From an uncultured Paracoccus sp. (GTDB lineage Bacteria > Pseudomonadota > Alphaproteobacteria > Rhodobacterales > Rhodobacteraceae): 64,000 bases of DNA. A program made the position numbers and the translations under genes. The notes under the pieces were generated by a model. The model did not search any database, had not been told where the DNA came from, and saw only the letters and a program-made list of their open reading frames with translations. Shown piece by piece: positions 5,764 through 63,425 of the stretch; the stretch's first letter is position 1; every line of letters starts with the position of its first letter. The DNA lies in NCBI RefSeq assembly GCF_947496875.1, contig NZ_CANMEH010000010.1, positions 86,453 through 150,452 on the forward strand, in the 5' to 3' direction.

Positions 5764-8700
5764 TCAGGCCACCAGCGCCTCGGCCCGGCGCAGATCGACG
5801 CTGACCATCTGGCTGACCCCCTGTTCGCCCATCGTGACCCCGAACAGCCGGTCCATCCGCCCCATGGTCACGGCGTGATGGGTGATGATCAGGAAGCGGG
5901 TGTCGGTGCGCCGCGTCATCTCGTCCAGCAGGTCGCAGAAACGGCCCACATTGGCGTCGTCCAGCGGGGCGTCGACCTCGTCCAGCACGCAGATCGGGGC
6001 GGGGTTCGCGAGGAACACCGCAAAGATCAGCGCCAGCGCCGTCAGGGTCTGTTCGCCCCCCGACAGCAGCGAAAGCGTCGCCAGTTTCTTGCCGGGCGGC
6101 TGGCACAGGATTTCCAGGCCGGCGTCCAGCGGGTCGTCGGATTCGACCATCACCAGCCGCGCCTCGCCGCCGCCGAAAAGATGCGTGAACAGCGTCCCGA
6201 AACTCGCGTTGACGGCGTCGAAGGCCGACAGGATCCGCTGGCGCCCCTCGCGATTCAGGCTGCCGATGGCGGCGCGCAGCTTGTGGATGGCGGCGGTCAG
6301 ATCGTCGTTTTCGGCCAGCAGGGTCGTCCGCTCGTCCTCCAGCGCGCGCTTGTCCTCGTCGGCGCGCAGGTTCACCGGGCCGATGGCATCGCGCTGACTG
6401 CGCAGGCGCAGCAGCCGGCTTTCCAGCTCAGCAAGGTCCGGTGCCGGATCGGCGGTCGCGTCCAGGCGGCTCTCCAGCTCTCGTGGCCCGGCGCCGGTTT
6501 CCGCGGTGATACGGGCCAGTGCTGCCGCTTCCGCAGCCTGCGCCGCCTCGGCCCGCGCCGCACAGGCGGCCCGTTCCTCGCGGGCAGCCGAGGCGGCGCG
6601 CTCCGCCTCGCGGGCGTGGCCGGTGGCCTGCAGCAGGGCCGCGCCGGCTTTGGCCAGCGCAGCGCGGGCGCGGTCGAGGCGCTGCTGCGCCGCATCCTCT
6701 CGCGCCGCGATCTCGGCGCGGCGTGCCGCCAGTCGGGCGGGCTGGTCCTGCGCAGCGGTCAGCTCGGCCACGGCGGCGCGGTGCCGATCCTGCAGTTCCG
6801 CGGTGCGACGGTCGGCTTGGTCCAGCCGGGTGCGCCAGCCGGCGTGCTCGCGGGCGATCTCCTGCAAGCGGCGGGCACGACTGGTGTCGTCGCGGGTCAG
6901 CTGGTCCAGCGTGGCGCGGCGGGCGACCGTGTCGGCGCGTGCCGCCTGCGCCGCCTCCCGCGCGTCGGTCAGCGCGCGGGTTGTGGCCTCGGGGTCGGGC
7001 AGTTCCGCGCGGGACCGCTGCGCCGCGTCAAGGCGGGTGCGGGCGTCGGCGGCGTCGGCGGCATGACGCGTCAGTTCGGCGCGGGCGGCCTCGATCTGCC
7101 CGGTGGCGAGCGACAGGTCGGATTCCGCGCGGGTCGCGGCGCGGCTGTGCTCGGCCAGCGCTCGTTCGGCCGCACGGTGTCTGTCACGGGCATCGGCCTC
7201 TGCCCTCGCGGCCTCGGCCAGCCGGTTCTTAGTGGCAGAATGCGCGGCGGCGGCCTGATCGGCGCGTTGGCGCGCCGCGTCGGCTCGGTGGGCAAGATCG
7301 GCCAGGCGGTTGACCTGTTGCAGATGCAGCGCGGCGGTGGAGACGGCGTCGCCGGCCGGAACCGTCAGCCCGTCCCACCGGAACAGGTCGCCCTGCCGCG
7401 TGACCAGGCGCTGTCCGGGGTGCAGCGCCGGTTGCAAGGCCGCACCCGTGGCCGCGTCCGGAACCAGCCCGGTCTGTTCCAGCCGCCGCGCCAGCATCGC
7501 GGGTCCGGTCACGTGATCGCCCAGCGGTGCCGCCCCGGCAGGTAGCTCAGGCGCGGCGGCATAGGCAGGCAGGTCCCGCCATCCGCTTGCGCCGGGGTCG
7601 GGTGCCGGCGGCGCGGCCAGATCATCCCCCAGTGCCGCACCGAACGCCGCCTCGAACCCCGGCGCTACGGTGACCAGGTCCAGCAGCCGCGGTCCTGCGG
7701 TCCGGCCACGCGCCACCAGCCGGGTGAGGGCATGCCGCTCGGCGTCGAGGGTGCCCGCCTCGCCTTCGGCCGCGGCGCGCGCGGCGCGGGTCGACGTCTC
7801 CTCGGTTTCCGCAGCCGTGCGGGCGGTCTCGGCAGCGGCCAGGGTTTCCTCTGCGGCGCGGGCGTTTTCGCCGGCGGTGGTTCGGGCCGCCTCTGCCCCG
7901 GTCAGCGCCGCTTCGGCCGCACGACCCTGGGCGCTGGCGCGATCGGCGGTTGCGGTCGCCGCGGCCGCGGCCGCTTCGGCCCGGCGCAGCATCGATTCCA
8001 GATCGGTGACCAGCCGATCGGCCGACTGGTGGCGTGCCGCCAGCCGCGCGGCCTCGTCCGTGAGCTCGGCAAGTTGGACCTCGATATCGCGCAACGCGTC
8101 GGCGGCAGATGCTGCCGCCGCTTCGGCCGCGGCCACCCGATCCTCGTGGCCAAGGCCCGCGGTCTCCAGTTCGTCCCGCTCCCGGTCGAGCCGCTGGACC
8201 ACTTCGGTCGCGTCGCGGTTCAGCGCCGCTTCGCGTTCGATGTCGCGATCCAGCTGCACAACGCGGGCACGCAGGGTGGTGACTGCCTGGGCGGCGCGCG
8301 CTTCGGCATCATCCAGCGCCTCGCGTTCGGCCTGCGCGCGGGCCAGGATCGCGGCGGCGATCGCCTCCTCTTCACGCAACGGGGGCAGGGCGGTTTCTGC
8401 GGCAGTGCAGGTGGCGGCCGCCTGTCGTGCCGCCGCCTCGGCGCGGGCGACTTGGGCCCCGGCCCGGTCCAGCGCTGCCGCCGCGTCGTTGCGGGCGCGG
8501 TCCGCCTGGGCCCAGCGGTGATACAGAAGCGCCGACTCGACGTGGCGCAGTAGGGTTCCGATCTCGCGGTAGCGGGCCGCCGCCCGCGCCTGGCGGGTCA
8601 GCGCCGCCGCCTGCGCCGCCAGTTGCTGCAGCGTGTCGTCGACCCGGGTCAGGTTGGCTTCTGCGCCGTTCAGCTTCAGCTCGGCTTCGTGCCGGCGCTG

Positions 8701-59591: not shown

Positions 59592-60599
59592 GCCAGTGCG
59601 CTGCCGGGGCAGCCCGGCGATCCGGCGCTCCTAGCGGCGGTAGTCGAGGCCGAGAAGATACCTCCGAAGGACGTGGTCAACGTCAACGCACTGACCCGCG
59701 AATACCTGCTGAACTCGACCTTCGAGAAGAAGGCCGCCAGCACGCAGCCGGAATACAAGCGGATGCTGACCGAACTGGAGGTTAAGTTTGGGAAGCTGCC
59801 GATCCGGAAGAAATCGGCCAGGACCCTCCCGTAAAGCCCGCAACCGTCTGTCAGTACTGTCTGCCGTGTTCAGCTACGCCGCGCGCAGGGGGCGCATGGG
59901 ACAACCCGCTGGCCCGGTTCGAGCGCATCAATTCCGGCGACCGATCTGAGATGATCTGGACGGCCTGCGACATTGCTGCGTTTATGGCGGCCGCGCCTCT
60001 GGAACTGCAACAGGTGATGATCCTGGCCCTGCATACCGGCAGCGTTACGGCGACCTGATCCGCCTGCGCTGGTCGGATTATGCCGGAGAAGCGATCAGTC
60101 TCAAGCAGAACAAGACCAAGGCGCGGGTCACGATCCCGTATCGCAGGCGCTGTCGAGGATGCTGGACGGTATGGACCGGCGCGGTCCTTATATCCTGACA
60201 CGCAGCGATGGGCGGCCCTAGTTTACCGAGGGTGATAACAAAGAGCTGGGCAAGCAGTGGTCCGCGCATATGATCGCCTGCGGTCTGCGCCCGGCCGGGT
60301 ATTCGACGCTGCCCAAGGCTAAGAAGGCCGAGCATCTGCGCTTCAGCGACATGCGCGGAATGGCGGTCACGATGCTGTCCGTGGCGGGCTCTAAGGTTCC
60401 GCAGATCGCTTCGATTACAGGGCACACCCTGCAATCAGCGTATCCCCTCCTCGAAGAATATCTGGCGATGACGCCCGCCTTGTCCCAGGTCGCGATCCTC
60501 GTCTTGGAGAACAGTCCAGCAACCGCTTTTGCAAACCAACTGCAAACCGGCCCCCAAGGGGCCGTCCACCCCAAGAGTAAAGTTAAAGGAGACTATTAG
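59592..60599 (+). pseudogene. Tyrosine recombinase/integrase pseudogene
   Basis: Pieces LTREYLLNSTFEKKAASTQPEYKRMLTELEVKFGKLPI; EMIWTACDIAAFMAAAPLELQQVMILALHTG; RYGDLIRLRWSDYAGEAISLKQNKTKARVTIP; HLRFSDMRGMAVTMLSVAGSKVPQIASITGHTLQSAYPLLEEYL; interrupted by frameshifts and TAG at 60219. Confidence 0.85.
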
Positions 60600-60600
60600 G

Positions 60601-61122
60601 ATGGATGGCGGACCCGGAGCGATTCGAACGCCCGACCCCCAGATTCGTAGCCTGACAGCTGCCGTTGAATCGAAAGGAAAAATCCTGCAACCGGCGGTCA
60701 ACTGCGTTGTTTCCAATCAATCGGTTACAAAATCGGTGCAAACCGAAACGGGCTCAGAAAACAAAAACCCCAGTGCGCTGGCGGGCGCAACCGGGGTCGA
60801 TGTTCAAAGCGTCACTCTCTTTGATTATGTTACCCTAACTCGCCTGCAGGCGGCAAGTGCGTTGGCCGGCGCAATCGCGGCCTGTGATTCGGAAGACCGC
60901 ATTCCCTTCTTGGAACTGCTGCTGCAAGAACTGCGCCCTGGCTGGCCGCAGGTGCCGTTTCTCTGCGAACTGGTGGAGGAAGCTGGGTTCTGGGCTGATC
61001 GGGCGAGCCGGGCGGAACTGAAAGCCTACTGCCTCTCCTGCTATCAGCGGATGCGCCCTGACGATCAGGCCGCCTTCCTCGCCTACGTTCATCAGGGGAG
61101 GCGGCGTGATGGGCTTTCATGA
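60601..61122 (+). CDS. Hypothetical protein upstream of RepA-like ATPase; start uncertain (ORF overlaps tRNA fragment)
   Basis: C-terminal part ALAGAIAACDSEDRIPFLELLLQELRPGWPQVPFLCELVEEAGFWADRASRAELKAYCLSCYQRMRPDDQAAFLAYV looks like real protein; overlaps next gene. Confidence 0.6.
   Translation: MDGGPGAIRTPDPQIRSLTAAVESKGKILQPAVNCVVSNQSVTKSVQTETGSENKNPSALAGATGVDVQSVTLFDYVTLTRLQAASALAGAIAACDSEDRIPFLELLLQELRPGWPQVPFLCELVEEAGFWADRASRAELKAYCLSCYQRMRPDDQAAFLAYVHQGRRRDGLS
60606..60655 (-). repeat. tRNA-Arg-like 3' fragment (candidate att scar)
   Basis: Minus strand ...CAGGCTACGAATCTGGGGGTCGGGCGTTCGAATCGCTCCGGGTCCGCCA: ACG anticodon loop, T-arm and CCA, but no matching 5' acceptor GGACCCG at expected distance. 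Confidence 0.65.
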
Positions 61123-62563
61123 AATGGGCGCGCTGGACGCCCGCCACCGCGCGGAACACGGCTACGACCCCGCGCGCCATCTGACCGGCCGCGCCGCGGA
61201 GCTCGCGAACGCGCTAATCCCTATGAGCCGGGTTAAGGCGGTGCTGCGGTCCCGCTATCTGGTCAAGGGATGGCTAGATCGCGGGGCCATGTCGGTCGTT
61301 TATGGCGAATCCAACGTGGGCAAGACCTTCTTCGCGCTCGACCTGGCTGCCCATGTGGCGGCCGGGTTGGACTGGCACGACCACCGCGTCCCTTCGGGCG
61401 AGAAATGGGCGGGTCCAGTTCTCTACATCGCCACCGAGGGCGGCACGGGCATCCGCAACCGCCTCGACGCAATGAGGCGCGATAACCCCGAGCTGGGCGG
61501 CGACAACCTGATCCTGCTGCCCGCCGCGCTGGACCTCTGCACGTCCGAGGACAGCCAGTGGGTTGTCGAGATGATCCTGACCAAGCTGCCACAACGCTCG
61601 TCGTTGGTGGTGGTCGACACTTTGGCGCGGACGATGGGCAACGGTGACGAGAACACCGCCAAGGACATGGGTCAGTTCGTCCGCAGTATCGATCTGCTGC
61701 GCGAGGAAACCGGCGCACATGTCATGGTCATCCATCACAGCGGCAAGGATGCCAGCCGAGGCGCGCGCGGATCAGGCAGCCTGCGCGCGGCGGCGGATAC
61801 CGAGATCGAACTGAAGCGCAGTGATGTCGTCATCGTGGCAGAGGCCAAGAAGCAGCGGGACATGTCCTGCGACGGCGTGTTCGCCTACCGGCTCAAGAGC
61901 GTGTTTCTCGGGATCGATGACGACGGTGATCCTGTGTCATCTGCGGTTGTGGAGCCTGCCGATCCGGTCAGCCGCAAGGCAAAAGCCAAACTTACGGGAA
62001 CCGACAAGATCGGCATGCATGCGCTTTCCGACGCACTGGCGCAGCATGGCGAGGTCAGGACCGGCGACATGTTCCCGCGTTACCGCCAATGCGTTCCCAT
62101 TGAACGGTGGCATGAGTTCTGCGACCGGCACAGCCTTTCCAATGGTGAAGGCGATTCCAGCAAGAGAACGGCTTTCCACAAGCTGAAGAAGCGGCTGCAG
62201 GACAAGAACCTGATCCGCATCGTGGATGGCTTTGTCTGGCGGGTTCAGCCTGAGGACCGTTCCCTGACACGAGGGAACGCCTTCCTCGAGTGTGGGAACG
62301 TCACCCAAGACGCAGCCGCGCAAGGCCAGGGAACGCCTGTCCGGCCGGCAGGTGCTGGCGAGGCAGGCGACCGTTCCCACCGTTCCCAGACCGTTCCCGA
62401 GAACGAGGGGAACGCTGGTCATGCTGCCGTTCCCACCGTTCCCGCGCTCTGTAAGAGCGGGAACAAGGGAACGCTGACCCCGCCGGGCAATGATGATGTC
62501 CGCAATGTTGTGGAGAAGCCTAGCGTCACGGCGAACGTACCTCGCAAGTTGCGACGGCCATAA
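61106..62563 (+). CDS. RepA/RecA-like hexameric AAA family ATPase
   Basis: VVYGESNVGKTFFALDLAAHVAAGLDW; VVVDTLARTMGNGDENTAKDMGQFVRSIDLL; HVMVIHHSGKDASRGARGSGSLRAAADTEIEL. Confidence 0.9.
   Translation: MMGFHEMGALDARHRAEHGYDPARHLTGRAAELANALIPMSRVKAVLRSRYLVKGWLDRGAMSVVYGESNVGKTFFALDLAAHVAAGLDWHDHRVPSGEKWAGPVLYIATEGGTGIRNRLDAMRRDNPELGGDNLILLPAALDLCTSEDSQWVVEMILTKLPQRSSLVVVDTLARTMGNGDENTAKDMGQFVRSIDLLREETGAHVMVIHHSGKDASRGARGSGSLRAAADTEIELKRSDVVIVAEAKKQRDMSCDGVFAYRLKSVFLGIDDDGDPVSSAVVEPADPVSRKAKAKLTGTDKIGMHALSDALAQHGEVRTGDMFPRYRQCVPIERWHEFCDRHSLSNGEGDSSKRTAFHKLKKRLQDKNLIRIVDGFVWRVQPEDRSLTRGNAFLECGNVTQDAAAQGQGTPVRPAGAGEAGDRSHRSQTVPENEGNAGHAAVPTVPALCKSGNKGTLTPPGNDDVRNVVEKPSVTANVPRKLRRP
62258..62473. 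repeat. Cluster of 11 perfect GGGAACG/CGTTCCC heptamers (5 direct, 6 inverted) plus one near-match
   Basis: GGGAACG at 62273, 62294, 62329, 62408, 62467; CGTTCCC at 62258, 62372, 62381, 62392, 62428, 62437; GGGAACA at 62459. Confidence 0.93.
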
Positions 62564-62605: not shown

Positions 62606-62995
62606 ATGGAGTCACTCATGACCAACACTTCCCCTCCCAAACAAATGTCTCCCGAGGATCAGAAGAACCTGATCTGCGGAATCCTCACGGACTTCGCCAC
62701 CGATCCGGACGTGGAGGTTCTTTTCGCTTATCTGCGCCATTGCGGGCTCCCCATCTTAGCCCTGCGATCGGCTGAGGACATCATCCCGGCTTTCCTCGGC
62801 CTCTACCGGCTCCGGACGGGCCAATACGACGTCGACCGGGCCTGCGAGGACCTGAGGTGGTGGCCGCCGATCGCCGCGCGCATTGCCGAGCTCGAAGCGG
62901 AGGCAAGAACGAAACCAAGCGACATGGAGGCGGGTCGCGGAGCCAGCCCGTCGCAAGTAGGTGCAGCAGCGGAGATTTTGCCAGATGATTTGTGA
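62606..62995 (+). CDS. Hypothetical protein (element-borne); start 62606 or 62618
   Basis: ORF with plausible composition, between ATPase and zinc-ribbon genes; overlaps the following CDS. Confidence 0.65.
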   Translation: MESLMTNTSPPKQMSPEDQKNLICGILTDFATDPDVEVLFAYLRHCGLPILALRSAEDIIPAFLGLYRLRTGQYDVDRACEDLRWWPPIAARIAELEAEARTKPSDMEAGRGASPSQVGAAAEILPDDL

Positions 62996-63425
62996 CGGAA
63001 AAGCGCGCATCGACATCCGCCGCCTCCGGTGCGGGGACACCGATGCAATCACCGTATGTGGCATCACGCTGCCCGTCGTCCGGACCCCGTGTCACTTCGG
63101 CGGTACCCGCCACTGGTTTCTCTGCCGCCAGTGTGAGCGCCGCTGCGTTCTGCTTTATGAGGACGGCTACCTTTGCCGGATCTGCGTCAACGGGCGCTAT
63201 CGCTCGGAACTGGCTTCGCCGCGTAAGCGTCAGCTGCTCAAGTCTTTCAAGACCCGCGACCGCCTGGGGCAGACCGGATGGGAGGGTCTTCTCGCACCCT
63301 TTCCCGGAAAGCCCAAGCACATGCACTGGAGCACGTACCTGAAGATCCGCGCGGCGGCCGAGCAGCACGAACTGGGGTTCCTCCAGGATGAGCTCGCTAA
63401 GCTGAAGAAAAGCCGGAATCCATGA
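62985..63425 (+). CDS. Cys-rich putative zinc-ribbon protein
   Basis: RHWFLCRQCERRCVLLYEDGYLCRICVNGRYRSE: two CxxC pairs. Confidence 0.7.
   Translation: MICDGKARIDIRRLRCGDTDAITVCGITLPVVRTPCHFGGTRHWFLCRQCERRCVLLYEDGYLCRICVNGRYRSELASPRKRQLLKSFKTRDRLGQTGWEGLLAPFPGKPKHMHWSTYLKIRAAAEQHELGFLQDELAKLKKSRNP

Follow-up and report, generated by a model that had tools for sequence, protein, structure and literature searches.

A conserved heptamer array at the 3′ end of a RepA-type helicase gene: a probable replication origin whose repeats co-vary with the recognition helix of the helicase

Why should the 3′ end of a helicase-like gene be crowded with copies of one seven-letter sequence? The question is raised by the window, a 64,000-nucleotide stretch of DNA from an uncultured Paracoccus sp. 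A letter count on both strands gives 11 exact copies of GGGAACG or its complement CGTTCCC between 62258 and 62473 (starts at 62258, 62273, 62294, 62329, 62372, 62381, 62392, 62408, 62428, 62437 and 62467), with a one-mismatch copy, GGGAACA, at 62459 and an isolated exact copy at 62092. A first-pass annotation had reported the same copies, had read them as iteron-like repeats in a RepA-like gene, and had suggested that they may mark an origin, or a site of autoregulation, for an element that is poorly described. Its counts hold, as does its statement that the motif occurs in both orientations and in two codon phases and is translated as GN, GT, RS and VP. The isolated copy falls where the gene encodes the conserved peptide MFPxxRQCV, and it probably does not belong to the array. 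Genome-wide there are 681 copies in 3.946 Mb, or 0.036 expected per 216 bp, and the heptamer is not dense elsewhere. The Poisson estimate for 11 copies is ∼3e-24, and ∼6e-20 once all positions are allowed for. Same-strand CGTTCCC pairs no more than 30 bp apart number eight in the genome, six inside the array and two outside.

One claim of the first-pass annotation, that the spacing is irregular, failed. Relatives share a common order: three direct heptamers with 9–11 bp spacing, often then an inverted copy of weaker match, a gap, a direct pair with ∼9 bp spacing, an A/T-centred palindrome, and two inverted heptamers 8–10 bp apart. A GCTGACCCAGCC-like tail usually follows the final inverted pair. 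The window array has this conserved layout from 62372 to 62473 (Table 1), and the copies from 62258 to 62335 are additional; a comparable extra set is carried by L086. The proposed hairpin CGTTCCC-gagaacgag-GGGAACG corresponds to R3–R4. Across the three nearest relatives (L086, L087 and L009), all of which read GGGAACG at the R7 position, the heptamers are 98% identical to those of the window and the spacers 82–85%. In an unbiased scan of 66 whole loci, 51 had their densest 7-mer cluster at the repA 3′ end, where 6.8 were expected; in the close family 27 of 30 did. The other 15 loci (e.g. L020, L029, L030, L134 and L135) do not, so a different arrangement is used by some relatives of RepA.

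Table 1. Features of the repA locus and its left flank, in window coordinates
Feature	Position	Strand	Remarks
Integrase remnant, frameshifted	59598..60604	+	79% match to right end of L087 element
Attachment site: 3′ end of tRNA-Arg(ACG), 46 bp	60605..60650	.	identical 46 bp flank intact 11.1-kb L087 element
repA: RepA-type hexameric helicase (AAA_25) with C-terminal winged helix	61106..62563	+	485 aa, intact ORF
Winged-helix domain, residues 289-387	61970..62266	+	AlphaFold pLDDT 88; helix-helix-helix-wing order
Recognition helix, first half, SSKRTAFHK, residues 351-359	62156..62182	+	R354, T355 and K359 predict heptamer
Extra upstream heptamer set, four copies	62258..62335	.	62258 direct; 62273, 62294, 62329 inverted
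R1, R2, R3: three direct CGTTCCC	62372..62398	+	starts 62372, 62381, 62392
R4: inverted heptamer	62408..62414	-	possible hairpin with R3
R5, R6: direct heptamers	62428..62443	+	9 bp apart
Central palindrome GCGCTCTGTAAGAGC	62444..62458	.	A/T-rich centre
R7 (GGGAACA) and R8 (GGGAACG), inverted pair	62459..62473	-	R7 has one mismatch

The array could in principle be a low-complexity coding repeat, a GN/VP/GT/RS peptide whose DNA similarity is incidental, and the window array does lie inside an ORF. Against this stand its two orientations and several phases, and the reading is refuted by eight relatives (L014, L016, L070 and L073–L077) in which the array follows the repA stop codon, outside the ORF; it is all but excluded. 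The array lies as much as 440 bp ahead of the stop codon, or starts at the stop, with its layout unchanged. Because it lies either inside the gene or begins at the stop codon, the array is a DNA site and not a peptide repeat. The earlier claim of repetition at the DNA level thus held, the array persisting where the peptide changes or vanishes.

The centre of the layout is conserved as a structure. Palindrome spacers in the relatives comprise 31 distinct sequences that stay self-complementary, with a mean stem of 4.97 bp against a shuffled mean of 2.76 and a shuffled maximum of 3.32. Pairing was scored as the longest stem; counting from the spacer ends misleads, the palindrome being offset. Folded as single-stranded DNA, positions 62428–62474 form a strong 47-nt hairpin (-17.7 kcal/mol, z -6.05). 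This hairpin is the point in favour of another alternative, in which the array would work in the repA mRNA, as a 3′-terminal hairpin or a terminator. However, no T run follows the palindrome, and an RNA element would leave both the covariation with the winged helix (see below) and the extra direct copies unexplained. Rfam gave no match, and this explanation is very unlikely.

The protein encoded over the array is a helicase with a C-terminal winged helix. Against Pfam, the repA product matches AAA_25 (1.4e-38) and otherwise just a sub-threshold AAA_24. The best Foldseek matches of the ATPase part are RSF1010 RepA structures (1olo, 1nlf and 1g8y; E ∼1e-11), and a profile search with hmmsearch also finds RSF1010 RepA (1g8y, 4e-15). 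The ATPase part has the RecA fold and is homologous to the RSF1010 RepA hexameric replicative helicase, and the first-pass label of a RepA-like ATPase holds. The AlphaFold model of the product has an overall pLDDT of 85. Its winged helix gives weak Foldseek matches to CRP/FNR DNA-binding domains (best E 0.05). When the recognition helices are aligned by eye (RTAFHKLKKRLQDKNLI against CAP RETVGRILKMLEDQNLI, the CAP sequence having been checked), R354, T355 and K359 fall near R180, E181 and R185 of CAP. These CAP residues are the ones that read bases. The placement is no more than suggestive, and such a correspondence is merely possible.

Stronger evidence that RepA reads the array comes from variation among relatives. 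The heptamer takes many forms, including CGTTCCC, CGTTACC, CGTTGCC, CGTCACA, CGTGACA, G/ACGGACA, CGTTACA, TGGGACA, CCGGACA, CTACAAA and GTATAAA. On a tree built from the helicase domain only, it changes 27 times among 45 rows, and close relatives often differ. A single well-supported clade holds three heptamers, CGTTCCC (L071), CGTTACC (L075) and CGTGACA (L074), and the recognition helix shifts along with them, from RTAFHK to RKAFFA to RQAFGR, respectively. Residues 355 and 359 rank top among 346 columns in mutual information with the heptamer. In leave-one-out nearest-neighbour prediction, limited to the 34 loci whose flavour occurs at least twice, residues 354, 355 and 359 recover the heptamer in every case (34/34, 100%), helix 351–359 in 97% and the helicase domain in 34%. 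The best of 476 nine-residue windows for this prediction begins at residue 351. An arginine at 359 is paired with ACA-type heptamers in 9–10 of 10 independent pairs (median p 0.002), a binary trait picked only after the alignment had been inspected. As a check on new loci, four RepAs recovered solely via the CGTTCCC DNA pattern carry the expected helix, RTAF(H/F)K. The strongly diverged phage 16-3, L033 and L058 all have CGTGACA together with Q at 355 and R at 359. L021 and L079 are an exception, combining CGTTCCC with a different helix (KKASRR). The covariation itself is shown; that RepA binds the array is inferred from sequence, without binding data, and is very likely on this evidence.

In L079 and L021, whose recognition helix is unlike that of other loci, the CGTTCCC copies are also differently spaced and accompanied by a GCGACGCGACGCGC hairpin.

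What would RepA do at this site? The iteron reading is supported because the heptamer is sparse elsewhere, the array outlasts the peptide, and the heptamer co-varies with the recognition helix. An iteron origin calls for multiple short, mostly direct repeats at one site of the replicon, and these are present. It also calls for repeats that match the specificity of the cognate initiator; the covariation meets this point, in the absence of binding data. We therefore consider it very likely that a small phage satellite, of a kind that integrates at a tRNA gene, has its replication origin in the array, with RepA as a self-specifying initiator helicase, both replication and binding being inferred from sequence. 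The first-pass proposal of an origin or autoregulatory site is supported to that extent, no binding or replication data being at hand. An A/T-rich stretch was sought at the array, and just the short palindrome centre (TATA/TTAA/TTTA/TGTA) was found; the lack of any other evident unwinding region speaks against an origin.

A competing reading is that the array is a RepA operator, bound by RepA to repress its own operon or to switch on downstream head genes, rather than an origin. The covariation between heptamer and RepA would suit any RepA-bound site, and many satellites have the array between repA on one side and the head genes on the other. However, it sits at the 3′ end of repA and not at the repA promoter, phages whose genes beyond repA are quite different have it in the same place, and RepA is a helicase and circular replicons also carry the array. 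An operator alone is unlikely, and the two roles could possibly coexist.

The origin reading has precedents in principle. SaPI Rep proteins recognise, through their C-terminal domain, iterons directly downstream of their own gene (PMC7581432). SaPI Rep/ori and SCCmec Cch2/ori (Ubeda et al. 2007 as cited in PMC7581432) resemble the window system in pairing an initiator helicase with a C-terminal domain for short iterons directly downstream of its gene, in occurring in satellites and islands, and in the proposal of two hexamers. The SaPI Rep-type layout (helicase, C-terminal reading domain, repeats at or downstream of the 3′ end) is matched here by the layout and the covariation, again without binding data. 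The helicases differ: SaPI Rep and Cch/Cch2 are of the DUF927 or D5 type, whereas RepA is of the RecA-fold RepA type, and a Pfam scan of the repA product found no homology to the SaPI Rep families (DUF927, D5/Primase_Cterm). The window-type array also differs in that it can be part of the coding sequence, that its heptamer pairs converge on a palindrome, and that three helix residues predict its flavour. By analogy, RepA may work like SaPI Rep without being a member of that family.

RSF1010, with RepA/RepB′/RepC, oriV iterons and the ssiA/ssiB hairpins, shares the helicase fold (1g8y, 1nlf, 1olo) and the combination of iterons with a hairpin. There, a separate RepC binds the iterons (PMC4234260), whereas the putative binding domain of the window RepA is fused to the helicase. 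The pRN1 orf904 origin likewise lies downstream of a rep gene whose product has a C-terminal winged helix (PMC4234260). That origin needs its stem-loop, and its authors propose the same arrangement for some phages (PMC4234260). It differs in having an SF3 helicase, a 100-bp stem-loop and no iterons. Lambda O/ori, P22 gene 18 and N15/PY54 repA also have an origin inside the initiator gene, as is proposed for the window; their proteins and iterons are unrelated to those of the window, and lambda O is not a helicase.

In the proposed mechanism, the C-terminal winged helix of RepA would bind the heptamers that its own gene carries at the 3′ end. Through the converging pairs (two direct, palindrome, two inverted), RepA rings would be loaded to either side of the A/T-centred palindrome and would unwind it, after which a primase and the host polymerase would take over. 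The ring-loading and unwinding steps rest on analogy with SaPI Rep, and RepA binding, ring loading, palindrome melting and replication direction all remain inferred. Carriers differ in their primase: a Prim-Pol domain is fused in 16-3, M. currus unnamed4 has a toprim gene ahead of repA, and no primase was recognised in the window. The putative DNA-reading domain and its target lie side by side, which would let them be exchanged jointly, and related elements would thereby gain new heptamer specificities.

Downstream from the attachment site, the window matches the left end of the L087 element, and the order across 59598–61109 is integrase remnant, tRNA-Arg att, orf and repA. This stretch is a head-to-tail (circular or tandem) junction of related L087-type elements. 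With its integrase broken and the 62459 heptamer mismatched, the window element is a decayed copy, probably of a phage satellite; it is incomplete, the contig ending at the window end. A second att copy lies inside an intact tRNA-Arg(ACG) gene at G000:C23:6305. Past repA, two ORFs at 62606–63425 (129 and 154 aa, the second Cys-rich) have no PHROG or Pfam match. In L087, positions 7761–8648 encode a 295-aa protein that overlaps the repA start, matches no family above the cut-off, and is a possible RepA partner.

Siblings in the same genus include 10–11-kb elements bounded by 46–49-bp tRNA repeats. These carry an integrase gene, repA, and genes for a terminase, a capsid protein, a protease and a portal-like protein; no tail gene was recognised among them. 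Capsid-forming PICI (cf-PICI) satellites are ∼10 kb and carry an integrase, their own replication gene, terminase, capsid, protease and portal. The siblings are similar in size and gene set, and the repeats and ORFs of the L087 (11.1 kb) and L090 (9.8 kb) elements fit cf-PICI gene content, not every ORF having been scanned. PHROG matches support phage gene content in L069/L016. A resemblance to cf-PICIs is possible; membership is not established, and there are no data on helper dependence or induction.

In many satellites the genes next to the array encode a head-tail adaptor and terminase, which would suit a DNA packaging site (cos/pac) serving those head genes. However, the terminase genes of phage CRP-811 lie at 30–32 kb of a 32.6-kb record and its array at 4.4–4.5 kb, the arrays of 16-3 and mu1/6 adjoin the helicase and the annotation of the stretch around them shows no terminase, and heptamer specificity follows the RepA winged helix. 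A packaging site was rejected on the gene order in these three phages, and it is very unlikely.

The origin candidate is not confined to satellites. Complete phages with the array include the lytic CRP-811 and CRP-821, the temperate 16-3, and Streptomyces phage mu1/6, in which it lies inside the helicase gene as in the window. GC skew of CRP-811 shows no origin signal and is uninformative, most genes lying on one strand. Four circular replicons also carry the array, pMRAD08 (21 kb), pKp_Goe_795-4 (17 kb), Caenibius p1 (38 kb) and M. currus unnamed4 (35 kb), and in each it is the densest 7-mer repeat of the stretch examined. They carry phage genes and are either phage-plasmids or excised satellites; their arrays may offer indirect support for a role in autonomous replication, itself inferred. 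A pattern-first search of viral contigs returned 25 arrays. Fifteen of them lie at a helicase gene by blastp, and most others either lie at one judged from a Walker-motif ORF picked out by eye or sit at the edge of a contig; two (L104 and L105) have no replication gene nearby and are possibly chance matches. Among 395 genomes of the order, the CGTTCCC-array pattern matched only in the window's own genome. This sample lacked the known siblings G020 and G033, so the pattern is rare rather than unique.

A bolder reading, which we consider likely, is that the RepA-type helicase, its winged helix and the heptamers travel together as a single specificity cassette, making up a widespread, apparently undescribed class of origin in phages, capsid-encoding satellites and phage-plasmids, with an origin motif readable from three residues. 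In principle, initiator helicases whose iteron origin lies within or downstream of their gene are already known. The literature searched, which did not cover subscription journals, held no description of this array, nor of a RepA-type helicase that combines a fused winged helix, converging heptamers around a palindrome and a three-residue rule; the paper on CRP phages mentions neither repeats nor an origin. Origins are unknown for most phages and satellites, and the rule locates a probable origin from the helicase gene alone in many elements and predicts the heptamer read. The site may hug the DNA-binding domain because both travel together, allowing new replication specificities that would bear on whether phages, satellites and phage-plasmids sharing a host are compatible. 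A small protein domain and short DNA would be enough to test directly whether a self-loading RepA-type helicase recognises its origin.

Other helicases carry related arrays. L099, L106, L110, L114, L120 and L141 encode DnaB_N + AAA_25 helicases related to mu1/6 gp21; their array sits inside the gene, ahead of a C-terminal tail that contains Cys. The motif used by mu1/6 is ACCTGCCC, and these six use CGTTCCC. In L097 and L107, CGTTCCC arrays adjoin large primase/helicase-like ORFs (by eye) that do not match the RepA set, and the motif may possibly serve other initiator classes.
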